This document shows, piece by piece, positions 12,227 to 51,792 of a DNA stretch of 64,000 bases; within the stretch, counting starts at the first letter, position 1; each line of letters begins with the position of its first letter. The notes beneath the pieces are model-generated. The model saw nothing but the letters and a program-made list of their open reading frames with translations. It searched no databases and was not told the origin of the DNA. The stretch is from Devosia sp. Leaf420 (lineage in GTDB: Bacteria; Pseudomonadota; Alphaproteobacteria; Rhizobiales; Devosiaceae), in assembly GCF_001425445.1 (NCBI RefSeq), contig NZ_LMQU01000012.1, positions 82,278 through 146,277 on the forward strand. Reading direction: 5' to 3'. The translations under genes were made by a program, and so were the position numbers.

Positions 12227-13219
12227 TTAGTCAGTCAGGGTTTTCACCGAGGCCCGCTCGACCAGTTTAGGCACCAGCATCACCCGCTGCGGCGGAAGCC
12301 GGTACCGGGTGCCGTGCATCCGGTCGAGAAGCAGGCGGAAGGCCGCGATGCCCATATCGCCGCCGGGCAGCCGAACTGTCGTCAGGGGCGGAGAGATCTG
12401 CGTCGCAGCAGCAAAATCGCCATAACCGACGACCGAAATGTCTTCAGGAACCCGCAAACCCATGCGGTGCAGTTCAGAAACGACATGGACCCCCAGCGCA
12501 TCGTGCGCGCAGAATAGAGCCGTCGGCATGTCGCCCTCGATCTTGAGATCAAGAAACGCCCCGGCAAAGCCGTCCCCGCCGAACTGGATTTCGATGACGC
12601 TGGCCCCGTCCTGATTGATCAGCGCTTCGCGGAGGCCAAAAAGGCGCTCCATGCGGCCGCGCAATACCCGGCTGCCATGCACGAAGCCGATCCGCCGGTG
12701 GCCGCGCTCCAACAGATATTGCCCGATGGCATTGCCTGCCTCATGGTCGGCGCCGGTCACCTGGTCGACCTCTTCGAGCGGCAGCACCCAGCCCAATCGC
12801 ACGACGGGCTTTCCGGCCGCCTTCAAGACCTGCAAGGTCGCGGTATCATGTTGCCCGACAAGGACAACGCCGGCGCTCACGCGCGCAATGTTCTCGACAC
12901 TGGTGGCTACTGCCGTCCAGTGGATTTGCACCTGATAGCCCGACTCCGCCGCCTCCCTCTGGATGCCGTTCTGCATCTGCATCCAGAGTTCGCTGTTCAC
13001 CGGGTCATGGTCGTTGAAGATGATGTGGATTGCAGGGCGGGTTGCTGCCACGTCGACAGCGCGAAGGTAACCCAGTTCGAGCGCCTTGGCCGTCACGCGC
13101 GTCCGGGTTTCTTCGCTAACGCCATCCTTACCCGCAAGAGCTCTCGAAACCGCGAACTTTGAGATCGCCAATTGGTCGGCGATTTCCTGCAATGTGATTT
13201 TCTTCAATCGCTCACCCAT
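12227..13219 (-). CDS. LacI-family transcriptional regulator
   Basis: A 330-residue LacI-type regulator. The DNA-binding domain is at residues 7-30 (KITLQEIADQLAISKFAVSRALAG). The hinge and effector domain follow, with GHRRIGFVHGS, DALGVHVVSEL and ISVVGYGDF. It is divergent from the binding-protein-dependent sugar operon that starts at 13426, so it most likely controls that operon and itself through the 206-bp intergenic region. It is convergent with the TetR gene, with only 7 bp between the stop codons. Confidence 0.92.
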   Translation of the reverse strand: MGERLKKITLQEIADQLAISKFAVSRALAGKDGVSEETRTRVTAKALELGYLRAVDVAATRPAIHIIFNDHDPVNSELWMQMQNGIQREAAESGYQVQIHWTAVATSVENIARVSAGVVLVGQHDTATLQVLKAAGKPVVRLGWVLPLEEVDQVTGADHEAGNAIGQYLLERGHRRIGFVHGSRVLRGRMERLFGLREALINQDGASVIEIQFGGDGFAGAFLDLKIEGDMPTALFCAHDALGVHVVSELHRMGLRVPEDISVVGYGDFAAATQISPPLTTVRLPGGDMGIAAFRLLLDRMHGTRYRLPPQRVMLVPKLVERASVKTLTD

Positions 13220-13425
13220 GGCGTTTGTTAGGTTGTATCACGCCAAAAGTTTTGCGCAAGTTTTGTATTTTCGGTCATAATAGCTGAGCAATTTCAGTGA
13301 AATGACCATATTTCGATTTTCTCCATTTCAATCCGCCTAAACGTATTGACCTAACAGTCTGGTATTGATTGGCTATTGTTAGCTTGAAGAGCGGCGTTTT
13401 AGCCGTCCGAGCTGAGGAGGGATCG
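13220..13425. promoter_or_regulatory. Divergent promoter/operator region
   Basis: An unusually AT-rich stretch between a LacI gene and an ABC operon. It contains two palindromes that could be operators: TTGCGCAA at 13252-13259, embedded in a direct repeat AAGTTTTG-CGC-AAGTTTTG-like context, and the perfect 13-mer ATTTCA-G-TGAAAT at 13291-13303. A TTGACC at 13346-13351 could be a -35 element, but no well-spaced -10 follows. The strong ribosome site GAGGAGG lies just before ATG 13426. Confidence 0.5.
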
Positions 13426-15354
13426 ATGACCAATATTTCTCGCAGAACATTTCTGGCCGCAACTGGCGCTGTACTCGTGCTGCCGGCCATTCCGGCCTTC
13501 GCTCAGGCGCCGTTGAAGGAAGCGCCGGCGCTGGCCGAAGCGGTTGCTGCCGGTACTATTCCGCCGCTCGCCGAACGCCTGCCGCTCAACCCTATGGTGG
13601 TGCAGCCCTTCGAAAGCGTCGGCCAATATGGCGGCGACCTCCGCGCTGCGCTTGTCGGCGGCGGCTCGCTCAACATGATGCACCGCTATCAGGGCTATGA
13701 GCCGCTCGTGCGCTATACCCCAGGTTTCGGCGGAGTCATCCCCAATGTCGCCGAGAGCTTTGAAGCCAACGAAGATGCGACGGCCTATACGTTCAAGCTA
13801 CGCGAAGGCCACAAGTGGTCCGATGGCACGCCCTTCACCACCGACGACGTGATGTTCTTCTACGAAGACATCCTCCTCAACGAAGAGCTCGCCCAATCCC
13901 CGCCGACCCCGCTCCGCTCGACCGATGGGAGCACTGCGACCTTCGAAAAGATCGACGATCTGACCTTCCGCATCGTCTTCGCCCAGCCCAATGGCCTCCT
14001 GCCGCTGCGTCTCGCCTGGGCCAATGATGATCGCACGACCCGCACCCCGCGCCACTATCTCGAGCAGTTCCACATCAAGTACAATCCTGATGCCGACAAG
14101 CTCGCGACTGATCAGGGCCTGACCGGCTGGGTCCAGCTCTTCCAGATCAAGAGCGGTATCGCTGTCGATGGCGAAATCTTCAAGAACAAGGACATGCCGA
14201 CGCTTTACGGCTGGCGCGTCACCCAGCCGATCGGCGAGTCCGCCGAATACTCGATCTCCGAGCGTAATCCCTACTATTTCAAGGTCGATACCGACGGCAA
14301 TCAACTGCCCTATATCGACCGGATTACCTATGCGGTCGCGGCCGACAACGAAGTACTGCTGCTCAAGGCGCTGCAGGGCGAGATCGATCTTCTCGACCAG
14401 TGGATCTGCACCCCGGCCAACCGCGCCGTGCTCTATGATGGGCAGGAAACCGGCCAATACGGGTTCTACACCACGACCTCGACCGAGCCCAACGAGATGG
14501 TGTTCCAGCTCAACCTGACCCATCCCGATCCCGCCAAGCGCGCGCTTTATCAAAACAAGGATTTCCGCGCCGCGCTCAGCCATTCGATCGATCGTCAGGC
14601 CGTCATCGATACGATCTTCATCGGGCAGGGCGCGCCGGCTCAGCCATCCATCCGCCCCGAAGATCCGCTCTACAATGAGCAGCTCGCCACCCAGTTCACC
14701 GCCTACGATACCGCCAAGGCCAATGAACTCTTGGATGCCATCATTCCCAATAAGGATGGGGAAGGCATGCGCCTCGACGAGGCCGGCAAGCGCGTGACCA
14801 TAATCTTCGAGATCGATCAGGTCCGCCAGACCTTCGTCGACAGCTTCCAGCTTGTCCTGCCCATGCTCCGCGCCGTTGGCATCGACGCCCAGATGCGCAC
14901 CATGGATCGCTCGCTCTGGGAAGTCCGCGTGCGTCAGGGCGGAGAATATGACGCCACTGTGCACAAATTCGGCGGCAATGGCGGCATCGTCGCCATTCTC
15001 GATCCGCGTTACTTCTTCCCCAATACCACCGAGGCCATGTACGCCAAGGGCTGGCAGATCTGGTACAACGACAAGGACTCCGTCGACGCCGTCGAGCCAC
15101 CGGAAGCCACCAAGCGCCAGTTCGAAGCCTATAACGAGTTGCGTCAGTCGAGCGACCCGGTTCGTCAGAACGAGCTGATGGCCGAAATCCTCCAGATCGC
15201 CGCCGACGAGTTCTACGTTTTCGGCATTACTCTGCCGCTCGACGGCTATGGCATCGTCGCCAATCGCCTCAAGAATGTGCAGCCGACCATGCCCAATTCC
15301 TGGGGTTATCCGACGCCCGCGCCGACCAATCCCGAGCAATACTACCTCAGCTGA
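13426..15354 (+). CDS. ABC transporter substrate-binding protein, family 5 (oligosaccharide/peptide type)
   Basis: A 642-residue periplasmic binding protein. The N-terminus is a twin-arginine signal (SRRTFLAATG, then hydrophobic, ending AFAQA at about residue 28), so export by Tat is likely. The mature protein shows the SBP_bac_5 hallmarks: FKLREGHKWSDGTPFTTDDVMF at about 124-145, then FRAALSHSIDRQAVIDTIF. The length is above that of simple oligopeptide binders and matches family members that bind oligosaccharides. The neighbouring GHL6-like enzyme, dehydrogenase and isomerases make a carbohydrate or glycoside the more likely ligand. The gene is followed by a strong hairpin at 15374-15403. 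Confidence 0.93.
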   Translation: MTNISRRTFLAATGAVLVLPAIPAFAQAPLKEAPALAEAVAAGTIPPLAERLPLNPMVVQPFESVGQYGGDLRAALVGGGSLNMMHRYQGYEPLVRYTPGFGGVIPNVAESFEANEDATAYTFKLREGHKWSDGTPFTTDDVMFFYEDILLNEELAQSPPTPLRSTDGSTATFEKIDDLTFRIVFAQPNGLLPLRLAWANDDRTTRTPRHYLEQFHIKYNPDADKLATDQGLTGWVQLFQIKSGIAVDGEIFKNKDMPTLYGWRVTQPIGESAEYSISERNPYYFKVDTDGNQLPYIDRITYAVAADNEVLLLKALQGEIDLLDQWICTPANRAVLYDGQETGQYGFYTTTSTEPNEMVFQLNLTHPDPAKRALYQNKDFRAALSHSIDRQAVIDTIFIGQGAPAQPSIRPEDPLYNEQLATQFTAYDTAKANELLDAIIPNKDGEGMRLDEAGKRVTIIFEIDQVRQTFVDSFQLVLPMLRAVGIDAQMRTMDRSLWEVRVRQGGEYDATVHKFGGNGGIVAILDPRYFFPNTTEAMYAKGWQIWYNDKDSVDAVEPPEATKRQFEAYNELRQSSDPVRQNELMAEILQIAADEFYVFGITLPLDGYGIVANRLKNVQPTMPNSWGYPTPAPTNPEQYYLS

Positions 15355-39159: not shown

Positions 39160-40824
39160 TCAATTGCTGAGGCGGATGTAGGGGATGTCCTTGGCCGCTA
39201 TTTCGTCGAGGCTTTCTTCGTAACCGGCATCGGCATAGCGCATGACGCCGAGGGCGGTGTCGTTGGTGAGGGCGCGGTCGAGGCGTTCGTCGGCTTCGGG
39301 CGTGCCATCGGCAATGACAGTGACGCCGGCCGAGGTCATGTAGCCGGCATAGCCGCCGCCGCCGGAGTGGACGACGACGAGATCGGCCATGGACGAGCAA
39401 AGCAGCATGGCGTCGAGGAGGGGCCAATCGGCGATGGCGTCGGAGCCGTCCTTCATGCGCTCGGTCATGATATTGGGATGGGCCATGGCGCCGGCATCGA
39501 GGTGATCGCGGCTAAAGGCGACGGGGCCCTTGAGTTCGCCCGTGGCCACCATGGTGTTGACGGCGCGGGCGAGGGCGGTGCGTTCGCCATGGCCGAGCCA
39601 GGCGATGCGCGCGGGGAGGCCTTCGAAGGGGACGTATTGGCTGGCGAGGCTGATCCAGTTGGTGACGATCCGGTTCTCCGGAAACATGTCGAGGAGTTTT
39701 CGGTCGATTCTGTGAATGTCCTCGGGGTCGCCGGAGAGCGCCATCCAGCGGAAGGGGCCGATGGCGCGGGCAAAGAGCGGGCGCAGATAGGCTTCGGTGA
39801 ATATCGGAATATCGAAGGCGTTGTCGACGCCGCCGGCCTGAGCATGGGTGCGAATGAGGTTGCCATTGTCAAAGACTTCGGCGCCAGCGGCCTTGAAGCC
39901 GAGCATGGCTTCGACATGATCGACGATGGAGGCGCGGCTTGCGGCCATGAGCTGGCCCTGGCCGTCGGTGCGGAGGCGCCGGACCTCTTCGAGGCTCATG
40001 CCCTTGGGGACATAGCCATAGACGAGATCGTGGGCGGCGGTCTGGTCGGTGACGATATCGGGGATGATGCCGCGGCGAAGGATTTCGGGATAGATTTCGG
40101 CGGCATTGCCGACGAGGCCGACGGAAAGCGCGCGCTTTTCGCTTGTGGCGGTTTCGGTGAGCGCGAGGGCGGTGTCGAGATCGGGGGCGATCTCTTGGAG
40201 ATAGCCGATGGCCTGGCGCTTGCGAGCGCGCTCGGGATCGACATCGACGCAGAGGATGGCGGCACCGGCCATGCGCCCGGCAAGGGGCTGGGCGCCACCC
40301 ATACCGCCAAGGCCGGCGGTCAAGACGAATCGACCAGCGAGGGTGCCGCCGAAGCGGTTCTCGGCGATGCGCATGAAGATTTCATAGGTGCCCTGAATGA
40401 CGCCCTGGCTGCCAATATATTGCCAGGCGCCAGCGGTGAGGCCGCCCCAGCAGATGAGGCCTTTTTTCTCTAGCTCGTAGAAGACTTCGGCGCGGGCCCA
40501 TTGGCCGACGAGATTGCAATTGGCCATGATGACCAAGGGCGCCTTGGCTTGGGTTTTGAGAAGGCCGATAGGTTTGCCGGATTGGATGAGGAGGGTCTGG
40601 TCCTCGTCCATGCGGAGAAGGGTTTCGACGATGGCCTTGTGGCTCGCCCAATTGCGTGCGGCCTTGCCGAGCGAGGCATAGACGATCAGCTCATCGGGGT
40701 TTTCGCCGACGGCAAGGACGTTTTCGAGCAAGCGCAGCAAGGCTTCCTGGCGCCACCCCTTGGCCCGCAACTCCGGACCGCCGGGAATGGGAAAATTGGG
40801 ATGGCGGGGATTGGGGCTGGGCAT
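39160..40824 (-). CDS. Urocanase-family hydratase, divergent (candidate thiourocanate hydratase)
   Basis: A 554-residue NAD-dependent hydratase clearly homologous to HutU. The NAD site GLGGMGGAQPLAGRMAG (about residues 174-190) and the YIGSQGVIQGTYE stretch are kept. It differs at places that are nearly fixed in true urocanases: the RPLFC active-site cysteine is Ala here (RPLFARAIGPFRW), the usual YGQMTAGSWIYIG reads WGGLTAGAWQYIG, and the glycine-rich HHGGGVGMGFSQH reads HSGGGGYAGYMTS. With the MIO-less lyase and DUF917 neighbours, hydration of thiourocanate in ergothioneine breakdown is more likely than normal histidine degradation. The homology is certain; the substrate is inferred. Confidence 0.85.
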   Translation of the reverse strand: MPSPNPRHPNFPIPGGPELRAKGWRQEALLRLLENVLAVGENPDELIVYASLGKAARNWASHKAIVETLLRMDEDQTLLIQSGKPIGLLKTQAKAPLVIMANCNLVGQWARAEVFYELEKKGLICWGGLTAGAWQYIGSQGVIQGTYEIFMRIAENRFGGTLAGRFVLTAGLGGMGGAQPLAGRMAGAAILCVDVDPERARKRQAIGYLQEIAPDLDTALALTETATSEKRALSVGLVGNAAEIYPEILRRGIIPDIVTDQTAAHDLVYGYVPKGMSLEEVRRLRTDGQGQLMAASRASIVDHVEAMLGFKAAGAEVFDNGNLIRTHAQAGGVDNAFDIPIFTEAYLRPLFARAIGPFRWMALSGDPEDIHRIDRKLLDMFPENRIVTNWISLASQYVPFEGLPARIAWLGHGERTALARAVNTMVATGELKGPVAFSRDHLDAGAMAHPNIMTERMKDGSDAIADWPLLDAMLLCSSMADLVVVHSGGGGYAGYMTSAGVTVIADGTPEADERLDRALTNDTALGVMRYADAGYEESLDEIAAKDIPYIRLSN

Positions 40825-40833
40825 GGAAGAACC

Positions 40834-41925
40834 TTAGGCGTTGGCGCCGTCGAGGGCATAGCGGGCAATTTCGATGCCCATCTGCTTTTCGACATATGGG
40901 TAGACGGTTGGATCGAGCACCGAGGCGCTGAGCGGGATTTTGGATTTCGGTACGTGCAGCACGAAAATCTGCATGCCTTCGCGCAACTGGCCGACGCTGA
41001 GGGGTTCGCCCTCGGCGGAGAGGGTGGTGATGACATCGGGGAAGGTGGCGGTGCGGGCGCCATCGCGGCCATCGACGGCCATATATTCGTTCATGACGTG
41101 GAGGACGTCGCCGCTCGACAGGGTAACGGCGCCGATGTCGAAGGCGTCCTTGGTGTAGAGCACCGCTTTTTTGAGGATCGTGCCCTCGCAGAGCACGGTG
41201 CCATTGGTGGTCTTGGCGATGGTGTCGATGATGGCGGTGCCGCCCTTGGCTTGGGCGGCAATGATGGCTTCGCCGAGTTTGAGGGCAAGGGAGATGCCGC
41301 CGAGTGCGGCGTGGCGGCGGACATAGCTGGCGCGGAGCGGATTGCGGCAGGAGGCGATGAAACCGCCGGACTGGTCGGCGGCGGTGCGGAGAATGGGCGA
41401 GATTTTCGCCGTGGCACCGCGGGTGACGAGCTCGATATAGCGGTTTTCGGCGCGATTGCCGCCGACGGCCGTCTGGATCATTTGCTCGGGCGAGCCGGCC
41501 ATGCCGATCGAGCCCATGTCGCCAGTCGGGTGGGCGCGAATATCGCCGACGGCATCGACGACCTTGGTGCCGAGGACGGCGGAGGGGAGCCAGCCGTTGA
41601 GAGTGGACGACTTGCCGTTTTGACCGATCATCAGGCCGGAGAGTTTCTCGCCGAGCGCTTCCTGCAGCAGTTGGACCGCCTTGATGTAGTCGACGCCCTG
41701 CATTTCCCACGGGGTGGTGGAGGCGGGAGCGCCGATGGCCGCGGCGGTGGCGACCCAGGCGTTTTCGTCGAGTTCTTCGATGCTGACGAGTTCGGGCTTG
41801 CCGACGCTGACCGCGGCATAGCCGAGCTGGCGGCCATGATCGGCCCAGCCGCCGCCACCGGCCGCATAGACGGAGCCTCCAAGCACGGCGGCTTCGACGT
41901 CCTTTTCAGTCAATATGCGTCCCAA
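40834..41925 (-). CDS. DUF917 (S-Me-THD) family protein, candidate thiohydantoin-processing enzyme
   Basis: A 363-residue protein with the DUF917 hallmark near its N-terminus (VLGGSVYAAGGGG, residues 14-26). The domain pattern continues with GDMGSIGMAGSPEQM and ends in a beta-rich C-terminal part with GDVLHVMNEYMAVDG. Members are annotated as hydantoin-utilisation or S-methyl-thiohydantoin desulfurase type proteins. It lies 9 bp upstream of the urocanase homologue, whose product would be a thiohydantoin (thioxo-imidazolone propionate). That makes this the likely next enzyme. The start is a TTG after GGGGAT. The exact reaction is inferred. Confidence 0.82.
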   Translation of the reverse strand: MGRILTEKDVEAAVLGGSVYAAGGGGWADHGRQLGYAAVSVGKPELVSIEELDENAWVATAAAIGAPASTTPWEMQGVDYIKAVQLLQEALGEKLSGLMIGQNGKSSTLNGWLPSAVLGTKVVDAVGDIRAHPTGDMGSIGMAGSPEQMIQTAVGGNRAENRYIELVTRGATAKISPILRTAADQSGGFIASCRNPLRASYVRRHAALGGISLALKLGEAIIAAQAKGGTAIIDTIAKTTNGTVLCEGTILKKAVLYTKDAFDIGAVTLSSGDVLHVMNEYMAVDGRDGARTATFPDVITTLSAEGEPLSVGQLREGMQIFVLHVPKSKIPLSASVLDPTVYPYVEKQMGIEIARYALDGANA

Positions 41926-41941: not shown

Positions 41942-42694
41942 TCAATTTGCGGCCGCTTGCTTTTGGCCTGTGCGGGCGGTGAGCCAGCGTTCAAGCCCGG
42001 CGAGGGCATCATAGATCAATACGGCGAGGATGCCGACGATCAAACCGCCCTGGAGGACGAAGGCCGTGTTGCCCGATTGCAGGCCGGCTATGATGACTTC
42101 ACCGAGGGTGCGCGCGGCGACGGTCGAGCCGATGGTGGCGGTCGCGAGGGCGATGACCGTCGAGAGGCGAATGCCGGCGAGAATGACGGGAAGGGCGAGG
42201 GGGAGTTCGACGCGCATCAGGCGCTGTCGGCCGGTCATGCCGACGCCGCGGGCGGCTTCGATGACGTTGGGCGGGAGGGTGGTGAGGCCGGTCAGCGTGT
42301 TTTCGAAGATCGGCAGGAGACCATAGAGGAAGAGCGCGATCAGGGTTGGCGCGGTGCCGAAGCCGAGAATGGGGACGGCAAGCGCGAGGACGGCGACGGG
42401 CGGAAACGTCTGGCCCACATTGGCGATGGTGCGCGAGACGGGCAGGAATTCGGCGCCGAAAGGGCGGGTGACGAGAATGGCGAGGCCGACGGCGACCACG
42501 GTCGAAAGCGCGATGGCGATGGCGACAATGGTCAGGTGGCTGATGGTGATATCGAGCAGATTGCCTTGATTGTAGATGGCCGGCTGGGTGGGGCGGGCGA
42601 ACAGGGCGAAGAAGCCCTGGAAGAGGTCGGGCTGGATGAGCAACGCGACCAGCACCAAGAAGACCGCGAGCCTGATGAGGAGGCCGATTTTCAT
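41942..42694 (-). CDS. Betaine/osmoprotectant-type ABC transporter permease
   Basis: A 250-residue inner membrane protein with five to six helices. The permease core has TIANVGQTFPPVAVLALAVP and the coupling stretch EAARGVGMTGRQRLMRVELPLALPVI, typical of OpuC/YehW-type betaine permeases. The ATGA overlap with the ATPase shows coupling. It pairs with the larger permease at 43623. Confidence 0.92.
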   Translation of the reverse strand: MKIGLLIRLAVFLVLVALLIQPDLFQGFFALFARPTQPAIYNQGNLLDITISHLTIVAIAIALSTVVAVGLAILVTRPFGAEFLPVSRTIANVGQTFPPVAVLALAVPILGFGTAPTLIALFLYGLLPIFENTLTGLTTLPPNVIEAARGVGMTGRQRLMRVELPLALPVILAGIRLSTVIALATATIGSTVAARTLGEVIIAGLQSGNTAFVLQGGLIVGILAVLIYDALAGLERWLTARTGQKQAAAN

Positions 42695-43626
42695 TGCGGA
42701 CGCGCCGCCATACGCGCGCAGGCGGCGAGGGTGATTATGCCAATGGCTTGGCCGTCGCGGGTGACGGGCGCGGCAGTGCGGCCCGACCAGAGGAGGTCGC
42801 TATAGGCATCGCGGAGGCTGGCGTCGGCCGCGATGGGGCTGCCGGTGGCGGTGCCGGTTTCGACATGGTCGCCAACGCGGGTCAGCGAGAGGAGGCGGAA
42901 GGGCCGGTCCGAGGTGCCGATGAGGTCGGCGACGAAGGGCGTTGCCGGATTGACGATGATTTCGGCGGGTTCGGCATATTGGAGGAGCTTGCCCTTATCC
43001 ATGACGGCGATGCGGTCGCCCAAGTGGATGGCTTCCTCCATGTCGTGGGTGACCAGCACGATGGTGGTGCCAAGCTTGCGCTGGATGGCGAGGAGATCTT
43101 CCTGGGCCTTGGCGCGGATGAGCGGATCGAGGGCGCCGAAGGGTTCGTCCATGAGAAGGATATTGGGGCCGGCGGCGAGGGCGCGGGCGACGCCGATGCG
43201 CTGCTGCTGGCCGCCCGAGAGCTCGTGGGGCATCCGATTGCGGAACTGGGCGGGGTCGAGCTGGAATAGCCCCAGCAGCTCATCGACGCGGGCTTCGATC
43301 TTCGATTTTTCCCAGCCAAGCAGCTTTGGGACGGTGGCGATGTTTTGGGCGACGGTCCAATGGGGGAAGAGGCCGTGGCCCTGGATGGCGTAGCCGATGC
43401 GGCGGCGGAGCTCATGGGCGGGGACGTCGCGGATATCTTCACCGTCGATGCGGATGGTGCCGGCAGTGGGCTCGACGAGGCGATTGATCATGCGCATCAG
43501 CGTCGTCTTGCCCGAGCCCGAGGTGCCGACGATGACGCTCATGGTGCGGGGCGGAATGGTCAGGCTGATGTGGTCGACGACCGTGGTGCCATTATAGGAT
43601 TTGACGATGTCCTCGATTTCGATCAT
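42691..43626 (-). CDS. Betaine/osmoprotectant-type ABC transporter ATPase
   Basis: A 311-residue ATPase of the ProV/OpuCA group. It has Walker A GTSGSGKTT (about residues 34-42), YAIQGHGLFPHWTVAQNIATVP (typical of betaine ATPases), LSGGQQQR and Walker B LLMDEPFGALDP. A short C-terminal CBS-like regulatory part follows (VTRDGQAIGIITL). The ATG overlaps the upstream permease stop (ATGA). Confidence 0.93.
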   Translation of the reverse strand: MIEIEDIVKSYNGTTVVDHISLTIPPRTMSVIVGTSGSGKTTLMRMINRLVEPTAGTIRIDGEDIRDVPAHELRRRIGYAIQGHGLFPHWTVAQNIATVPKLLGWEKSKIEARVDELLGLFQLDPAQFRNRMPHELSGGQQQRIGVARALAAGPNILLMDEPFGALDPLIRAKAQEDLLAIQRKLGTTIVLVTHDMEEAIHLGDRIAVMDKGKLLQYAEPAEIIVNPATPFVADLIGTSDRPFRLLSLTRVGDHVETGTATGSPIAADASLRDAYSDLLWSGRTAAPVTRDGQAIGIITLAACARMAARPQ

Positions 43627-44813
43627 GCGCCGCGTCCCTTGATACTGATCTGTTCGACGATGGCGTCGAGAATGACTGCGGCGGCGAAGGCGAGGCCGAC
43701 GGTGGGCACGGCGCCGAGGAGCACGAGGTCCATCGCCGTCTGGCCGATGCCTTGGAAAACGAAAACGCCGAAGCCGCCGCCGCCGATAAGCGCGGCGATG
43801 GTGGCGAGGCCGATATTCTGGACGAGCACGATGCGGATGCCGGTGAGAATGACCGGCAGGGCCAGCGGCAGCTCGATATTGAGGAGGCGCTGGCGATCGG
43901 TCATGCCCATGCCGCGCGCGGCATCGACTACTTGGCCATTGACGCCGAGGAGGCCAACGACGGTGTTGGATACGATGGGCAGGAGCGAATAGGCAAAGAG
44001 CGCGATGAGGGCCGGGGCGATGCCGATGCCGGAAATGCCGATATTGCTGGCGCCGGGGATGTTTGCGGCGACCCACGCGAGGGGGGCGATGAGGAGGCCG
44101 AAGAGCGCGATCGAAGGAATGGTCTGGACGATGTTGAGCGTGTTGAGCACGGCAGCGCGCAGCGGTTTGACGCGATAGCAGAGAATGCCGAGGGGGATAC
44201 CGGCGAGGGTGGCTATAGTGACGGAACCGAAGGCGAGGACGAGGTGGGTGCGCGCTTCCTGCCAGAACGCGGGCGCGCGGCTGGCATATTCCTTGAGAAG
44301 CGAGAGATTGCTCCAGAGGCCACTCCAGAGGATCAGGCCGATGGCGCCGAGTACGATGGCAAGCAGTGCGACGCGCCAGACGGGGCGGAGGCGGAGGCGT
44401 GTCAGAGCGTCGGTGACCATCAGCGAGAAGGCGAGGAGCAGCAGCCAGAAGCCGGCGCCAGGGGCGACGCGGGCATAGTTGTTGTCAGCGGGCGTCAGAT
44501 GGCTGGCGGCGGCGCCGATGGCAAAGGCGAGAACGGCGAGGGCGAGGAAGCCGGCGGCCAGTTTGACGATGGGGCGGAAGCGGACAAGCGCTGTCGCGAG
44601 TGCGGCGCCGATCGCGGCGATCAGGAGGATGGACCAGCCGTCGTCCAGCGAGCCGACGATGCCGATGCCTTCGCCAGGGACAATGCGGTTGGCGCGAAAG
44701 AGGGCGAAAGGCAGGGCGAGACCGGCAAGACCAATAATGGCGACCAGCACCCCGAGTTTATCGAGGCGATGCCAGGGCTTCTTTTCGATGTCTGCTGACG
44801 CTGCAAGACTCAA
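43623..44813 (-). CDS. Betaine/osmoprotectant-type ABC transporter permease, long form
   Basis: A 396-residue permease. An N-terminal extension of about four hydrophobic helices (residues 20-175) precedes the ordinary permease core, with NIVQTIPSIALFGLLIAPL and DAARGMGMTDRQRLLNIELPLALPVI. This long arrangement resembles YehY-type permeases, where the extension's role is unclear. It follows the binding-protein gene after a hairpin, and is the first of three tightly coupled transporter genes. Confidence 0.92.
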   Translation of the reverse strand: MSLAASADIEKKPWHRLDKLGVLVAIIGLAGLALPFALFRANRIVPGEGIGIVGSLDDGWSILLIAAIGAALATALVRFRPIVKLAAGFLALAVLAFAIGAAASHLTPADNNYARVAPGAGFWLLLLAFSLMVTDALTRLRLRPVWRVALLAIVLGAIGLILWSGLWSNLSLLKEYASRAPAFWQEARTHLVLAFGSVTIATLAGIPLGILCYRVKPLRAAVLNTLNIVQTIPSIALFGLLIAPLAWVAANIPGASNIGISGIGIAPALIALFAYSLLPIVSNTVVGLLGVNGQVVDAARGMGMTDRQRLLNIELPLALPVILTGIRIVLVQNIGLATIAALIGGGGFGVFVFQGIGQTAMDLVLLGAVPTVGLAFAAAVILDAIVEQISIKGRGA

Positions 44814-44889: not shown

Positions 44890-45801
44890 TTAGCTCAGGA
44901 AGCCGTTCTTGGTGAGGTAGTCGGTTGCGACAGCAGCGGCAGGCTCGCCACCGACCTGAACGCGGCCGTTGAGGTCCTGCAGGACTTCGAGGGTCAGGCC
45001 TTCGAAGACGGGCTTCAGCAGTTCGGTGATCTGCGGATATTCCTTGAGGACTTCATCGCGGATGATCGGGGCGGGCTGGTAAACCGGCTGCACGCCCTTG
45101 TCGTCTTCAAGAACTTTCAGGCCCGAGGGAGCGATGCCGCCATCGGTGCCATAGACCATGGCGGCGTTGACGCCATTGGTCTGCTGGGCGGCAGCGGCGA
45201 TGGTGGCTGCGGTGTCGCCACCCGAGAGAACGACGAGCTGATCAGGGGTCAGGGTGAAGCCATAGACTTCCTGGAACTTTGGCAGCGCGGCCGGGGAATT
45301 CACAAATTCCGAAGATGCGGCCAGCTTGACTTCGCCACCGCCGGCAACCCAGGCGCCGAATTCGGTGAAGGTCGTCAGATTGTTGGTTTCGGCGACATCG
45401 TTGCGGATGGCGACGGCCCAGGTGTTGTTGGCGGGCGAGGGCGTCAGCCAGACGATCTTGTTGGCTTCAAGATCGAGCTTTGCAGCTTCGTTGTATGCGC
45501 TTTCGGCATTGTTCCAGAGCGGATCATCGGCCTTATCGAAGAAGAAGGCGGCATTGCCGGTATATTCGGGATAGATGTCGATTTCGCCAGCGATGATGGC
45601 TTCGCGCACGATCGGGGTGGCGCCGAGCTGGATGCGGTCTTCAACCTGGATGTTGTTGTTCTCAAGCACCTGCTTGATGATGTTGCCGAGAACGCCGCCC
45701 TCGGTGTCGATCTTGGACGAGACCACGACCTGAGCCTGGGCAGTGCCGGCCAGCACGACGAATGCGGATGCTGCAGTCAGCAGCTTGGCGGTGAGGCGCA
45801 T
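44890..45801 (-). CDS. Betaine/osmoprotectant-type substrate-binding protein (candidate ergothioneine binder)
   Basis: A 303-residue periplasmic protein of the OpuAC/ProX-like family. It has a Sec signal (AFVVLAGTAQA, cleavage about residue 22), then VVVSSKIDTEGGVLGNI and GEIDIYPEYTGNAAFFF, the classic ligand motif of this family for quaternary ammonium compounds. ATG 45801 has a good GGAGAT site. The gene directly follows the MIO-less lyase (79 bp). Since ergothioneine is a betaine, and known ergothioneine importers (EgtU-type) belong to this family, that ligand is the favoured inference. Confidence 0.88.
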   Translation of the reverse strand: MRLTAKLLTAASAFVVLAGTAQAQVVVSSKIDTEGGVLGNIIKQVLENNNIQVEDRIQLGATPIVREAIIAGEIDIYPEYTGNAAFFFDKADDPLWNNAESAYNEAAKLDLEANKIVWLTPSPANNTWAVAIRNDVAETNNLTTFTEFGAWVAGGGEVKLAASSEFVNSPAALPKFQEVYGFTLTPDQLVVLSGGDTAATIAAAAQQTNGVNAAMVYGTDGGIAPSGLKVLEDDKGVQPVYQPAPIIRDEVLKEYPQITELLKPVFEGLTLEVLQDLNGRVQVGGEPAAAVATDYLTKNGFLS

Positions 45802-45880: not shown

Positions 45881-47440
45881 CTACAGACCCTCCCCCAACG
45901 CGAAAAACTCATCCACCTCTTCAATGGTCGAGTGAGAAATCAGTTCGCCAAGAAAATCTTCCGAGCCCAAAGATTCTTCAAGGTCTTCGACTTCCGAGGA
46001 AAGCGGGCGATCGACTGTGTAGGTTTTCGAGCAGTTTCGGACCCGCGCATAGACCATTCCGGGCACGTTGCCAGGCTGGTCGCCGGAAATGTCCATGGCT
46101 TGGGCGGCGAGCATGGCTTCGAGAGCGGCAAGGCGCTGCAGCGCCAGGATTTGCCGCTCGAAACGCTCGACGACAAGGGGCAGGAAGGCGGCTTCGTCTT
46201 CCATGCCGTCGGCAACGACCATGGAATTGGCCGAGATGGGCGCAGTCATCGAGAGGACGCGGGCAAAGAGTTCGCCGGCAAGCTTGATGGCGGGGCCGAA
46301 GCCGGTGGCGACATGGCCGGGAAAGACGAGATTGACCGGCAGATCGCGGCGGCCGCCATTGCCGAGGAGGACGCAGCGATTGAACGAATTGCGCGCGACA
46401 TGGGCAAGGCCAAGCTGGGCGGCCTGGATGAAGAGGGTGACATCAAGCGGCAGGGAGCCGCCGGAAGTGAGCACCTGGCCATTGGCGACGACGGGATTGT
46501 CATCGGTGCGGCCGGTGGCGGCAAGGAGGGTGCGGCCGGCGACGCGGAGGGCTTCGAAGCCGGTGCCGAAAACCTGGCTCATCATGCGGAGGCTCAACGG
46601 GTCCTGGATCTGGGTGGCATTGGGCCAATCCCAGCCGCGGGCATTGAAATAGAGCCAGGCGCCGATGCGGCTTTCGCCTTCGGTGCCGGCATAGGCGACG
46701 GCTTTCCAGGGATCGCGCGAGGCGCCGAGTGCGCCGGCGGTGGTGATGGCGGTGGCGAGCAGCACGCGAACTGATGCGGCGGCCCGGCGCAGGGCATCAG
46801 CGGCGGCGGCATAGCCGACGGCATTGGTCGAGACCGAGGCAAGACTATCGCGGGCGGCGAGATGAACCGGGGCGAGGCCGGCTGCGGCGAGGGCATGATC
46901 GGCGGGGAGGCGCTCGCCATCGAAAAAGGCTTCGCCGGCCCCGGTCAGCACGGCGCCGATCTGGCCCATGAGACCGATATCGGCGCAGCCGATGGAGCCG
47001 GTGCGGCGGACGACGGGGACGACGTCGCGTTCGAGAAGATCGAGATAGGCCGAGACGAGGGATGGCGTGCAGCCGACCTTGCCGGTGAGCAGCATATTGG
47101 TGCGGATGGCCATGGCCATGCGGACGATGTGGCGCGAGAAGGGTTCGCCGGTGCCGAAATGGTGGGCGCGGACGAGGCCGATATTGAAGGCGTCCATCTC
47201 GTCCTGCGACCAGGCGATGTCCTTCATGGCGCCGACGCCTGTGGTGGCGCCATAGACGGGTTGGCCGGCCGCTATAGCGTTTTCAATGGCTTGGCGCGAA
47301 TGGGCGACGGCGGCCAACGCATCTGGATCGGGCACGAGCGGGGCGCGGTGCTGGGCGATGCGCGCCAGATCGGCAAAGCTCAGCGGGCCGCCGGAAAGGC
47401 TAAGCGGGGTGCGGTCTTGACGGTGGGTGCCGGCGGGCAT
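45881..47440 (-). CDS. MIO-less aromatic amino acid lyase homologue (candidate ergothionase)
   Basis: A 519-residue protein of the histidine/phenylalanine ammonia-lyase superfamily, with the usual length and fold. YGATTGVGAM (about residues 63-72) keeps the active-site Tyr region. The MIO-forming site, GS(V/I)G-Ala-Ser-Gly in true ammonia-lyases, reads GSIGCADIG here (about residues 148-156), so Ala-Ser-Gly is replaced by Cys-Ala-Asp and no MIO group can form. Another marker, QDPYSLR, is QDPLSLR. Ergothionase, which removes trimethylamine from ergothioneine, is a known MIO-free branch of this superfamily. The neighbouring betaine importer, DUF917 protein and divergent urocanase support the same role. 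No ordinary histidine ammonia-lyase activity is expected. Confidence 0.85.
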   Translation of the reverse strand: MPAGTHRQDRTPLSLSGGPLSFADLARIAQHRAPLVPDPDALAAVAHSRQAIENAIAAGQPVYGATTGVGAMKDIAWSQDEMDAFNIGLVRAHHFGTGEPFSRHIVRMAMAIRTNMLLTGKVGCTPSLVSAYLDLLERDVVPVVRRTGSIGCADIGLMGQIGAVLTGAGEAFFDGERLPADHALAAAGLAPVHLAARDSLASVSTNAVGYAAAADALRRAAASVRVLLATAITTAGALGASRDPWKAVAYAGTEGESRIGAWLYFNARGWDWPNATQIQDPLSLRMMSQVFGTGFEALRVAGRTLLAATGRTDDNPVVANGQVLTSGGSLPLDVTLFIQAAQLGLAHVARNSFNRCVLLGNGGRRDLPVNLVFPGHVATGFGPAIKLAGELFARVLSMTAPISANSMVVADGMEDEAAFLPLVVERFERQILALQRLAALEAMLAAQAMDISGDQPGNVPGMVYARVRNCSKTYTVDRPLSSEVEDLEESLGSEDFLGELISHSTIEEVDEFFALGEGL

Positions 47441-47507: not shown

Positions 47508-48293
47508 TCAAACAGACTTGAGCATGCCGCCATCGACACGGATGAGGCTGCCGGTGACATAGGATGCTTTGTCGCTCGCGAGAAAGGCGACGACATCGGC
47601 CAGTTCCTCGGGGCGGCCATAGCGGCCGGCGGGGATTTGCGAGAGCGACTGGGCCTTTACCTCATCGACGGTCTTGCCGAGGCGCTTGGCGGCGGCGGCG
47701 TCGAGTTCATCGACGCGGTCGGTATGGATGCGGCCCTGAACGATGACATTGGCAGTGATGCCGTCAGCGGCGACTTCGGAAGCGAGGGTTTTGCTCCAGC
47801 CGACCAGCGCCTGGCGGAGAGCATTGGATATGGCGAGGCGCGGGATGGGGGCTTCGACGCCCGAGGAGGTGAGGGTAATGATGCGGCCCCATTTGCGCTC
47901 TTTCATGCTGGGCAAGAGGGACTGGCTGATGGCGATGAGCGGGGTGATCATGGTGTCGAACTGGCGCGAAAAGTCAGCAGGCGCAAGCGCTTGCGCTTCG
48001 CCAGGCGGTGGGCCGCCGGAATTGTTGACGAGGATATCGGCACCGCCATCGGCCGTGATCTTGGTGATCAGCGCCTCGATGGAGGCGGGGTCGGCCAGGT
48101 CGAGAGAGACGGCGCTAATGCTGCCGCCGAGGGTTTTGTCGACGTTGGCATCGAGCGCGGCGATGGCGTCGGTGGAGCGGGCGGCGCCGATGACGTGGGC
48201 GCCTTCATTGGCGAGGGCGAGGGCGGTGGCGGCGCCGAGGCCCTTGCTGGCGCCAAGGACGAGGGCGCGCTTTCCTTCGATTCCGAGCTTCAT
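47508..48293 (-). CDS. SDR-type protein lacking the catalytic Tyr-Lys pair
   Basis: A 261-residue Rossmann-fold protein of the short-chain dehydrogenase family. The cofactor motif LGASKGLG is at residues 13-20 and VDGGM lies near the C-terminus. The expected NNAG reads NNSGGPPPG. The active-site Y-x3-K is replaced: the aligned stretch is LAISNAL, with Leu for Tyr and Asn for Lys. A recognised SDR subgroup has this change, and its chemistry is not the usual one. It is the last gene of the four-gene sugar-acid operon (ATGA overlap with the aldolase-like gene). Sugar or sugar-acid dehydrogenation is possible but not shown. Confidence 0.85.
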   Translation of the reverse strand: MKLGIEGKRALVLGASKGLGAATALALANEGAHVIGAARSTDAIAALDANVDKTLGGSISAVSLDLADPASIEALITKITADGGADILVNNSGGPPPGEAQALAPADFSRQFDTMITPLIAISQSLLPSMKERKWGRIITLTSSGVEAPIPRLAISNALRQALVGWSKTLASEVAADGITANVIVQGRIHTDRVDELDAAAAKRLGKTVDEVKAQSLSQIPAGRYGRPEELADVVAFLASDKASYVTGSLIRVDGGMLKSV

Positions 48294-49216
48294 GCGGCAA
48301 TCTCCTTGAGGCGCTTTTCTTGCCGGGCGAGGAGGCGTTCGACATCGGCGATGTCGAGTTTGCTCAATGCCGGCGCGGGTTTACGGAGAGTAGCTGACGA
48401 AATGACGCCGCGTTTGGCAAGCACATATTTGCGGCAGGCGAGGCCGATGCCCTGTTGCTGCTCGTAGCGGGCGAGCGGGAGATAGGCGTCGAAGATGTCA
48501 TGAGCGCGGTCGGGATTGCCCTTGGCGTAGTTTTCGACGACGCCGACCATCATTTCGGGGAAGCAGAAACCAGTCATGGCACCATCGGCGCCGCGGCCCA
48601 TTTCTTCGGGAAGGAAGAGGCCGCCATTGCCGCAAAGGATTGAAATTCTTCGGGTTTCGCCCTTGTCGCTGGAAGCGCGGAGGGTGGTGATTTTCGATAG
48701 GCCGGGCCAATCTTCATGCTTGAGCATGACGCAGGTCGGGATATCCCTAACGATGCGATCGATGACTTTTGGGGCGATGGTGACATTGGTTGTCAAGGGG
48801 TAATCCTGGAGGACCCAGGGGGTCTTGCCGAGGACGTCGCCGACCGAGGCGAAGTAGGCGTAGATCTGGTCGTCCGTCTTGAGGGTCCAGGACGGGGCGA
48901 CCATGACGCCTGCGGCGCCGATTTCCATAACGGAATCAGCGAGTTCGCGCATGGGGGCGAGGCCGGGAGCGGTGACGCCGACGACGACGGGGATTTTGGC
49001 GCGGGAAATGACGCGGCGGGCGATTTCCCTGGATTCTTCAGCAGTTAGCTTGGGCGCTTCGCCCAATTGGCCGAGGATGGTGAGGCCGGTGGCGCCTTTT
49101 TCCTCATAGAAATCGACCATGCGATCGACGCTTGCCCAATCCACTTCGCCGGTGTCGGAAAAGGGTGTGACGGCAATGACATAGACGCCTTTGGCATCTT
49201 CGGTCAGAAGGGGCAT
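48290..49216 (-). CDS. DapA-family (dihydrodipicolinate synthase/KDG aldolase-type) lyase
   Basis: A 308-residue TIM-barrel lyase. The Schiff-base Lys lies in VMLKHED (about residue 167), and the partner Tyr in LQDYPL. The substrate loop is LGQLGEAPKL in place of the more usual GTTGE. The family covers dihydrodipicolinate synthase, 2-keto-3-deoxy sugar acid aldolases and dehydratases. Since an IlvD/Edd dehydratase is in the same operon, cleavage or dehydration of a 2-keto-3-deoxy sugar acid is the favoured role. ATG 49216 was chosen over an upstream in-frame extension. Confidence 0.9.
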   Translation of the reverse strand: MPLLTEDAKGVYVIAVTPFSDTGEVDWASVDRMVDFYEEKGATGLTILGQLGEAPKLTAEESREIARRVISRAKIPVVVGVTAPGLAPMRELADSVMEIGAAGVMVAPSWTLKTDDQIYAYFASVGDVLGKTPWVLQDYPLTTNVTIAPKVIDRIVRDIPTCVMLKHEDWPGLSKITTLRASSDKGETRRISILCGNGGLFLPEEMGRGADGAMTGFCFPEMMVGVVENYAKGNPDRAHDIFDAYLPLARYEQQQGIGLACRKYVLAKRGVISSATLRKPAPALSKLDIADVERLLARQEKRLKEIAA

Positions 49217-49238
49217 GAGGCGACTCCGGTTGTTGGGC

Positions 49239-50099
49239 TCAGTGAGAAAAATAGAGGGTGGCGGCGTTGTTGGCAAAGACCGCGGCGTGATGTGCCGGGG
49301 GGATAGTGTCGAGGCTGAGCGCGATCAGATCGTCGTCCTCGGGGACGGTCTTGAAAAGCTCGGTATGGGGCCAATCGCTGCCCCAAAGGACGCGGTTTGG
49401 GTAGCATTCCGTTAGCGTTGAAACGGCTGAACGATAGAACTGGTTATTCGGGGCGTCACTGAGGCGATAGGGCGCGGAAATTTTCACGTAAACGCGGCCG
49501 GTTTCGAGAGCGTGGTCGAGATCGTCGAGGGCGGTGCCGGGATCGTCGAGGGCGATGAAGGCGAGGTGATCGATGACGCCGGTAATGTCATAGCGCGCTG
49601 TGAGATCAGCGACGGTCCCGATGGCTTCGGGGCCGATCTGGAACTGGGCGTGCCAGCCGAGGGCGCGAATGCGCGGGGCGAGAGTGGCGAAAGCGTCAAA
49701 GCCGATGCCGGATTTATTGCGCAGGTTGAAGCGGACGCCGCGAACGCCGAGGGCGTCAAGCCGCTGGAGTTCGGCGTCGCTGGTTTCGGGCGGAATGACG
49801 ACGACGCCCCGGACGCGATCGGCGTGGCCGGTCAGCGCTGTCAGGAGGACGCGATTGTCTAGGCCGTAGACGCTTGGTTGGACGAGGACGCCGCGGGCGA
49901 TGCCGAAGGTTTCGGCGAGGGCGAGCCAGTTGTCGATTGGTTCGATCCGCGGCGTGTAGCTGCGCGGGATGGCGAGCGGAGCCGCGGGGGCGAAGACGTG
50001 AAAATGGGCGTCGCAGGTGTTTTCGGGCAGGCGCAGATTGGCCGGATTGCGCAGGGGGCGCGGGGGGAGGCAGAGCGTGGCGTCGAGCACGTCAGCCAT
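49239..50099 (-). CDS. Amidohydrolase-2 family lactonase-like hydrolase
   Basis: A 286-residue metal-dependent TIM-barrel hydrolase. The HxH metal motif is in CDAHFHVF (residues 29-36), a metal His in GVIDHLA and the catalytic Asp in WGSDWPH. The family contains sugar-lactonases such as L-fuconolactonase and L-rhamnonolactonase, and pyrone-dicarboxylate lactonase. It is encoded together with a sugar-acid dehydratase (8-bp overlap), so hydrolysis of an aldonolactone is the likely step. Confidence 0.88.
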   Translation of the reverse strand: MADVLDATLCLPPRPLRNPANLRLPENTCDAHFHVFAPAAPLAIPRSYTPRIEPIDNWLALAETFGIARGVLVQPSVYGLDNRVLLTALTGHADRVRGVVVIPPETSDAELQRLDALGVRGVRFNLRNKSGIGFDAFATLAPRIRALGWHAQFQIGPEAIGTVADLTARYDITGVIDHLAFIALDDPGTALDDLDHALETGRVYVKISAPYRLSDAPNNQFYRSAVSTLTECYPNRVLWGSDWPHTELFKTVPEDDDLIALSLDTIPPAHHAAVFANNAATLYFSH

Positions 50100-51792
50100 G
50101 GTCTTTGGCGGCCATCAGGAAATCGAAATCGAGACCATCGTCGGCCTGGGTGACGTGGCGATCGTAGAGTTGGGCGTAGCCGCGGGGTGGCGATGGCGGC
50201 GGCGCAGGCAGTGCAGCCATGCGGGCGGCGAGCTCGGTGGCGGAGATCAGGAGTTCGAGGCGGCGATTGGGCACGTCGAGGCGGATGCGGTCGCCGGTGC
50301 GGACCGCCGCAAGGGGGCCGCCATCGGCGGATTCGGGGGTGATGTGAAGGACGACCGTGCCGAAGGCGGTGCCGCTCATGCGTGCATCGGAAAGGCGGAC
50401 CATGTCCTTGACGCCTTGGCGGGCGAGGTGGCGCGGAATGGGAATGTAGCCGGCTTCGGGCATGCCGGGAGCACCCTTGGGGCCGGCATTGCGGAGAACG
50501 AGGACATCGTCGGCGGCGATGTCGAGACTGGGATCGTCGAGGCGTTCGGTCATGTCGCGGACCGAGTCAAAGACAACGGCGCGGCCTTCGTGGACCTGCA
50601 GCTTTGGATCGGCCGCGGCGTGCTTGATGACGGCGCCGCGGGGGGCGAGATTGCCCGAGAGAACCGCGATGGCGCCGGCAGGCGAGATGGGCGCGGTGCG
50701 CGGGCGGATGATCTGGGTTTCGTAGCGCGCGGGCAGGGTGCCGATGGTGTCGCCAAGCGTGCCGCCGAAGGCGCGAGGGGCGGCGAGATCGAGCAGATCG
50801 GTCAATTCCGAGAGGAGGCGCGGGACGCCACCGGCGGCGTGGAATTCGCCCATATAGCCGGTGCCGGTTGGTTTTAGATCGACAAGGACTGGGACCTTTT
50901 GGCCGATGGCGTCGAATTCGGCCATGTCGAGCTTTTTGCCCAGGCGCCCATAAATGGCGGCGAGATGGACGACGGCATTGGTGGAGCCGCCGAGGGCTTG
51001 GAGCGTCACGAGGCCGTTGCGGAGGGCGGCAGGGGTCAGAACTTCTGCGGTGGTGAGGCCGGTTTCGGTCATGGCGACGGCGGCGCGGCCGGTTTCTTCG
51101 GCAAGGCGCATGCGCTCGGACGAGGTGGCGGATGCTGAGCCGGCCATGGGGAGGGAGAGGCCCATGGCTTCCATTAAGGCCGCCATGGTGGAGGCCGTGC
51201 CCATGACGGTGCAGGTGCCGACGGAGCTGGCGAGCTTGCCATTGATCTCGGCGACTTCGTCGGCATCGATCTGATCGGCGCGATATTGGGCCCAGATGCG
51301 GCGGCAATCGGTGCAGGCGCCGAGGCGTTCGCCGCGATGGCTGCCGGTATCCATGGGGCCCGTGGGGAGGACAATGGCCGGGACTTCGCTCGAAGCGGCG
51401 GCCATGACCTGGGCGGGGATGGTTTTATCGCAACCGCCGATCAGAATGACCGAATCCATGGGCTGGGCGCGGACCAGTTCCTCGGTTTCCATGGCCATGA
51501 GATTGCGCAGGAACATGGAAGTGGGCGAAGCAAAGCTCTCGTGGATCGACATGGTCGGGAAGACCATGGGCATGCCGCCGGCCAGCATGACGCCGCGCTT
51601 GGCCGCTTCAATCAGCTGCGGGACATTGCCGTGGCAGGGATTATAATCGGAATAGGTATTGGCGATGCCGACGATGGGGCGATCGAGCGCGTCATCGGAA
51701 TAGCCCATGGCCTTGATGAAGGCCTTGCGCAGGAACAGCGAAAAATCCTGGTCGCCATAGCTGGTCAACCGTCTGCGAAGCCCGCGGGTCAC
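50092..51792 (-). CDS. IlvD/Edd-family sugar acid dehydratase
   Basis: A 566-residue Fe-S dehydratase. The cluster cysteines are in NPCHGN, GGCDKT and GTCTVMGTAS, and further family blocks are GGSTNAVVHLAA and LSDARMSG. This is the pattern of the branch that contains L-arabinonate and D-xylonate dehydratases rather than of DHAD proper, judging by length and by the sugar-pathway neighbours. It would turn an aldonate into a 2-keto-3-deoxy acid. The GTG start has GGGGAGG before it. It is divergent from a Gfo/Idh/MocA dehydrogenase across a region with a perfect palindrome. Confidence 0.92.
   Translation of the reverse strand: MTRGLRRRLTSYGDQDFSLFLRKAFIKAMGYSDDALDRPIVGIANTYSDYNPCHGNVPQLIEAAKRGVMLAGGMPMVFPTMSIHESFASPTSMFLRNLMAMETEELVRAQPMDSVILIGGCDKTIPAQVMAAASSEVPAIVLPTGPMDTGSHRGERLGACTDCRRIWAQYRADQIDADEVAEINGKLASSVGTCTVMGTASTMAALMEAMGLSLPMAGSASATSSERMRLAEETGRAAVAMTETGLTTAEVLTPAALRNGLVTLQALGGSTNAVVHLAAIYGRLGKKLDMAEFDAIGQKVPVLVDLKPTGTGYMGEFHAAGGVPRLLSELTDLLDLAAPRAFGGTLGDTIGTLPARYETQIIRPRTAPISPAGAIAVLSGNLAPRGAVIKHAAADPKLQVHEGRAVVFDSVRDMTERLDDPSLDIAADDVLVLRNAGPKGAPGMPEAGYIPIPRHLARQGVKDMVRLSDARMSGTAFGTVVLHITPESADGGPLAAVRTGDRIRLDVPNRRLELLISATELAARMAALPAPPPSPPRGYAQLYDRHVTQADDGLDFDFLMAAKDHG

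Follow-up and report, generated by a model that had tools for sequence, protein, structure and literature searches.

The gene at 45881-47440 on the minus strand of the window (by which I mean the whole 64,000-nucleotide stretch of Devosia sp. Leaf420 DNA that was analysed) very probably encodes an ergothionase, an ergothioneine trimethylamine-lyase, its substrate and product being read from genomic context. The kind of enzyme is known, and the window lyase is a well-supported, poorly annotated branch of it; what is new is a separate alphaproteobacterial clade of predicted ergothionases, together with signs of further homologues that do without MIO. The features that the argument draws on are these:

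45881..47440, minus strand: MIO-less lyase, predicted ergothionase, 519 aa (PF00221; best PDB match 6s7j)
46979..46987, minus strand: codons of Cys152-Ala153 (the MIO triad site, one residue short) and Asp154 (the conserved post-triad Asp)
46502..46504, minus strand: codon of Asp313, found in 6s7j too, Ser/Thr in the HutH proteins compared (computed from the residue number)
46283..46285, minus strand: codon of Lys386, found in 6s7j too, Val/Thr in the HutH proteins compared (computed from the residue number)
44890..45801, minus strand: OsmF-type substrate-binding protein of a betaine-type ABC importer (NF049931, 494 over 400 bits; start ATG 45801)
43623..44813, minus strand: ABC permease (PF00528)
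42691..43626, minus strand: ABC ATPase (PF00005; start ATG 43626)
41942..42694, minus strand: second ABC permease (PF00528)
40834..41925, minus strand: thiohydantoin desulfurase (NF058529, 587 over 440 bits)
39160..40824, minus strand: thiourocanate hydratase (NF058530, 1043 over 930 bits)

The lyase open reading frame is intact over its 519 residues and, as the preliminary description had it, the codons after GSIG read TGC GCC GAT on the minus strand (46987-46979), giving Cys152-Ala153-Asp154. The same description took these three residues as a replacement of Ala-Ser-Gly by Cys-Ala-Asp, which is wrong, since the Asp is the normal neighbour that follows the triad and the triad itself has become CA plus a deletion. 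In the HMMER alignment, with which MAFFT agrees, Asp154 pairs with the conserved post-triad Asp of P. putida HutH and the loop reads GSVG-ASG-D in that enzyme versus GSIG-CA-D in the window lyase; another MAFFT run sets the gap one residue earlier (C-AD) and leaves the difference in length unchanged. As aligned, then, the Ala-Ser-Gly site is two residues (Cys-Ala) and a one-residue deletion, and the loop of the Treponema denticola ergothionase 6s7j, SSIG-EG-DI, has the same deletion. The alignment check against HutH and ergothionase thus bore out the absence of the triad while ruling against residue-for-residue replacement, and the earlier statement that the protein cannot form MIO holds for the Ala-Ser-Gly route. 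A single-sequence structure prediction for the lyase reached a mean pLDDT of 35.

The shortened loop is not a matter of chance, because all 61 rows of the family alignment (which leaves out L001, L002, L003 and every match that scored no more than 250 bits, and in which the window and L004 are one and the same protein) have a loop that is one residue short and is without Ala-Ser-Gly. The motif is GSIGCAD in 49 rows, GSIGAAD in five and GSLGCAD in two, with GSIGCGD, GSMGCAD, GSLGTGD, GSLGTAD and GSMGTGD occurring once each. Cys152 was considered as a catalytic nucleophile and rejected: the first loop residue varies, being Ala or Thr in 8 of the 61 rows, and the sister clade has Glu, Gln, Ala or Val at this site, a variation that argues against a catalytic Cys. 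Invariant in 61/61 rows, by comparison, are Tyr63, His93, Arg285, Asp313, Lys386 and Glu414; 6s7j has equivalents of all six, and Tyr63, His93, Arg285 and Glu414 are common to HutH also. One Gln site, where the window lyase, 6s7j and HutH all have Gln, is His in 14/61 family rows. Of the 75 genus genomes (the genus is probably Devosia), 39 hold relatives at E 1e-80 or better, three of them as partial matches (G344, G289 and G357); such relatives occur also in 28/397 genomes of the order, own genus counted in, and at E 1e-60 in 4/289 genomes of the class; these three genome sets overlap, and each takes in the window's own genome.

The best PDB match to the window lyase is ergothionase 6s7j (160 bits), ahead of two HutH proteins (131 and 130 bits), and a 12-member family profile gives 303 bits to 6s7j versus 253 to 7tqr and 238 to P. 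putida HutH. The NCBI HutH model scores the window lyase at 219 bits, far below its cut-off of 539. With HutH the lyase shares its fold family and several active-site residues, and differs from it in lacking Ala-Ser-Gly, in falling under that cut-off and in possessing the Lys and the Asp that the HutH proteins compared do not have. With the T. denticola ergothionase (6s7j, 6s7q) it has in common PF00221, a triad one residue short and the same Lys, Asp, Tyr, His, Arg and Glu, and the differences here lie in the loop (EG in that enzyme, CA in this one), in a separate supported branch and in low overall identity. An ergothionase without MIO is already in print, according to section 14 of PMC13405746, which cites Maurer et al. 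(2019), and this makes the absence of MIO in the window lyase less surprising. Elsewhere the genome encodes a separate lyase that keeps the loop GSVGASGD and scores 557 over 524 bits with one NCBI HutH-type model and 537 versus 539, a narrow miss, with another.

In an unrooted tree of 26 rows, whose bootstrap had not fully settled and in which two rows sit on long branches, the window family (100/100), a clade of 6s7j and Burkholderia-type sequences (97/95) and HutH (100/99) separate cleanly, so that the window family forms its own branch beside the 6s7j clade; going by these sequences, MIO may have been lost once or several times. The ergothionase of Burkholderia sp. HME13 is biochemically known, according to PMC13405746. 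The Burkholderia-type enzyme is represented here by a Burkholderia arboris locus (L119), whose lyase resembles that of the window in its MIO-less loop GSIG-EA-D, in its Lys and Asp and in adjoining a thiourocanate hydratase and a desulfurase (71% and 66% identity), although it sits in the 6s7j clade and not in the window family. Not every MIO-less relative has the Lys, for a Sinorhizobium meliloti member of the 6s7j clade carries Ala at the Lys386 site. Its gene on pSymA (L117, 9851-11491, plus strand) is annotated as a 'histidine ammonia-lyase', yet it has the MIO-less loop GSVG-QA-D as well as the Ala, and it adjoins genes for an ABC transporter and one annotated as a dimethylsulfoniopropionate lyase. 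Two more MIO-less lyases of this clade are plasmid-borne, one in Paracoccus saliphilus (L121), where its neighbours are hut genes and a gene for a putative sulfate exporter, the other in Polaromonas sp. JS666 (L118) next to a YeiH-family gene, and both sets possibly serve an ergothioneine-sulfonate route.

Since the window family lies on a branch apart from the 6s7j and Burkholderia-type clade, the substrate has to be deduced from context, and here the operon is informative. The lyase heads a same-strand run of genes for the OsmF-type binding protein, a permease, the ATPase, a second permease, the desulfurase and the hydratase, in which neighbouring genes either overlap slightly or are separated by no more than 79 bases. 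Both the hydratase and the desulfurase fall under the cut-offs of the S-methyl versions in NCBIfam, and although the hydratase clears the broad HutU cut-off as well (693 versus 375 bits), the thiourocanate model scores it higher; a control HutU from a hut cluster behaves in the opposite manner, with 1013 bits for the HutU model and 683 for the thiourocanate model (cut-off 930). The importer clears the OsmF equivalog cut-off and receives only 92-96 bits from the EgtUC ergothioneine-transporter model. Upstream of the lyase (47508-51792, minus strand) lies a catabolic set of sugar-acid type, comprising an SDR, a DapA-like protein, an Amidohydro_2 protein and an IlvD/Edd dehydratase. The DapA-like, amidohydrolase and IlvD/Edd genes (48290-51792) were considered as part of the system and set aside, as they occur in no cluster of at least three neighbourhoods; the SDR (47508-48293) stood outside that clustering, masked by the choice of an antisense reading frame.

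The same company is kept across relatives. Among 37 neighbourhoods (the window and 36 relatives' loci; the lyase of L076 is present, though the choice between overlapping reading frames dropped it from this analysis), 31 hold the hydratase, 31 the desulfurase, 28 the OsmF-type binding protein, 28 an ErtD-type and 25 an ErtE-type gene, the window itself being without the last two, and in most neighbourhoods examined the lyase stands at the operon head. When the diverged members were checked against NCBIfam, four of five hydratases (out of the 31) exceeded the cut-off, the fifth being truncated by the end of its stretch, and all five desulfurases (again out of 31) did so. Six neighbourhoods are hydratase-less, and four of these genomes have a hydratase over the cut-off elsewhere; a thiourocanate hydratase over the cut-off was not found in two relatives' genomes, G477 and G538. 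Across the 75 genus genomes, with HutU-like matches of 536-691 bits set aside and partial hydratases in G344, G340 and G357 counted as present, lyase and hydratase are both present in 38, both absent in 35, and found singly in one genome each way (Fisher p 4e-19, a value that overstates independence, as the genomes are related). The lyase-only genome, G347, is 55% complete, and the hydratase-only genome, G350, has in its gene set another MIO-less lyase with the loop GSVG-VG-DL, whose best solved match is 6s7j (194 bits) and which has Glu at the Asp313 site. In Rhizobium sp. SL42 a lyase, an amidohydrolase, a Zn-dependent hydrolase, a DUF917 gene and a 'urocanate hydratase' stand together, and the lyase, the one annotated relative seen, is labelled 'aromatic amino acid ammonia-lyase'; tblastn shows this gene set in Shinella sp. 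PSBB067 and Ochrobactrum quorumnocens too.

A five-step ergothioneine pathway was reportedly described by Beliaeva in 2022. The ergothioneine catabolism gene set of NCBIfam is matched by the hydratase and desulfurase of the window operon and by ErtD and ErtE in the operons of relatives; in this genome, by contrast, the ErtD and ErtE candidates lie on another contig, C1, with 732 over 600 bits for the ErtD-like and 552 over 520 bits for the ErtE-like protein. Their identity to the operon-type copies is only 56-61% and 45-49%, respectively, and their participation in the window pathway is accordingly a deduction. On C1 (L109, 9923-14438, minus strand) these ErtE- and ErtD-like candidates stand next to the ASG-bearing HutH-like gene and to genes for an ABC transporter.

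Put together, the predicted route would begin with the OsmF-type ABC importer bringing ergothioneine into the cell, a specificity assigned from context, after which the lyase would eliminate trimethylamine to give thiourocanate. Because trimethylamine is a good leaving group, the MIO electrophile would not be needed, and the early expectation of a leaving group of this type has gained ground, as the 6s7j match together with the operon hydratase and desulfurase points to a probable trimethylammonium substrate. Lys386 and Asp313 are, we infer, the best candidates to take over activation, and with Tyr63 and Glu414 they would probably replace MIO through acid/base and electrostatic activation. After that, the hydratase and desulfurase would convert thiourocanate into hydantoin-5-propionate, releasing sulfide, and the pathway would be completed to glutamate by the ErtD- and ErtE-like enzymes that other parts of the genome encode.

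What else could such a gene be? The nearest competitor, improbable as it is, would be a MIO-less lyase that happens to sit with thiourocanate genes and acts on another histidine-type betaine (hercynine, S-methyl-ergothioneine or ergothioneine sulfonate). Related enzymes of the 6s7j clade may indeed serve other substrates, given that in Paracoccus they adjoin hut genes together with a putative sulfate exporter and in Polaromonas a YeiH-family gene, and the T. denticola ergothionase accepts ergothioneine sulfonate, which would favor this alternative too. However, the window hydratase and desulfurase exceed the thiourocanate and thiohydantoin cut-offs and not the S-methyl ones, no gene of sulfite-exporter type was identified among the operon genes, and the own genome yielded neither a second hydratase-family match at E 1e-100 nor a HutI over the cut-off, as one would expect of a route from hercynine to urocanate.

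Two other possibilities fare worse still. A decayed or non-catalytic homologue retained for another role would be suggested by the loss of the MIO triad and by nothing else, and it is very hard to reconcile with an intact frame, with catalytic-type residues invariant in 61 rows and with a position at the operon head conserved in most neighbourhoods examined; the preliminary description had likewise judged this a specialised enzyme and not a decayed gene, and frame and conservation side with it. That the protein is a true ammonia-lyase or aminomutase, making MIO or some other electrophile in an unusual way, seems barely conceivable: the PF00221 fold and the Tyr63, His93, Arg285 and Glu414 common to HutH would fit, and against these stand 61 family rows with a loop one residue short and devoid of Ala-Ser-Gly, a first loop residue that may be Cys, Ala or Thr so that none there is essential for an electrophile, a best solved match to an enzyme reported without MIO, and another, triad-bearing lyase in the same genome. 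An ergothionase therefore remains the reading by which I would explain the window gene.

Beyond this family, a profile scan of 398 genomes of the phylum, in which no more than three candidates per genome were scored, gave among those candidates five genomes whose scores exceed 770 bits and 13 places that score 265-320 bits, while the 18 lower-scoring loci that were read (L143-L160, none above 257 bits) have GSVGASGD. Seven of the 13 places were aligned as a third set (L136-L142, in genomes G464, G584, G494, G661, G429, G565 and G993, with surroundings in L161-L168), and 7/7 have a shortened loop (AG or AA) and the Lys, with Ala or Gly instead of Asp at the Asp313 site; in a further two, in L162 and L167, the loop alone was read and is likewise short. 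In group g287, five genomes have two third-set lyase places each. These sequences suggest that further MIO-less lyases of other specificity may exist. The Lys near the lost MIO site is found in 21/22 MIO-less rows of one alignment, S. meliloti having Ala, and in 7/7 of another.

The third-set gene L142 (G993, L165) belongs to a hut cluster in which HutU, HutI and HutF pass their cut-offs and which also encodes a BCCT transporter and a binding protein of OpuAC type. The OpuAC-type importer and hut genes were weighed as proof of a hercynine lyase and kept as a lead only, since pseudomonad hut clusters carry such OpuAC-type importers for histidine. The cluster in L165 also has a HutH-like protein (12981-14612, minus strand) in which GSVG runs directly into YLTHMA, the whole ASG apparently being deleted; its scores with the two HutH models, 494 and 515 bits, nevertheless fall only a little short of the respective cut-offs, 539 and 524.

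A joint reading of all these groups would make MIO-less PF00221 proteins a wider class of betaine lyases, for the most part unannotated, with the Lys as the usual substitute for MIO, the residue before DNP (Asp/Glu versus Ala/Gly) telling sulfur-bearing substrates (ergothioneine and its sulfonate) from others such as hercynine, and L136-L142 as a new specificity; I regard it as speculative and rather unlikely, the Ala at the Lys site of S. meliloti making it somewhat less probable than it would otherwise be.

Whatever becomes of that wider proposal, the shortened loop together with the Lys and the Asp provides a simple annotation rule for separating such enzymes from HutH. In a 2026 paper, ergothionase is described as limited to few genera on the basis of BLAST with a Burkholderia sequence, and the paper itself cautions that such a search may miss divergent homologues (PMC13405746). 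The window clade is a case of this kind, and it places a predicted ergothionase in 39/75 genomes of the genus and in 28/397 genomes of the order, the genus itself included.
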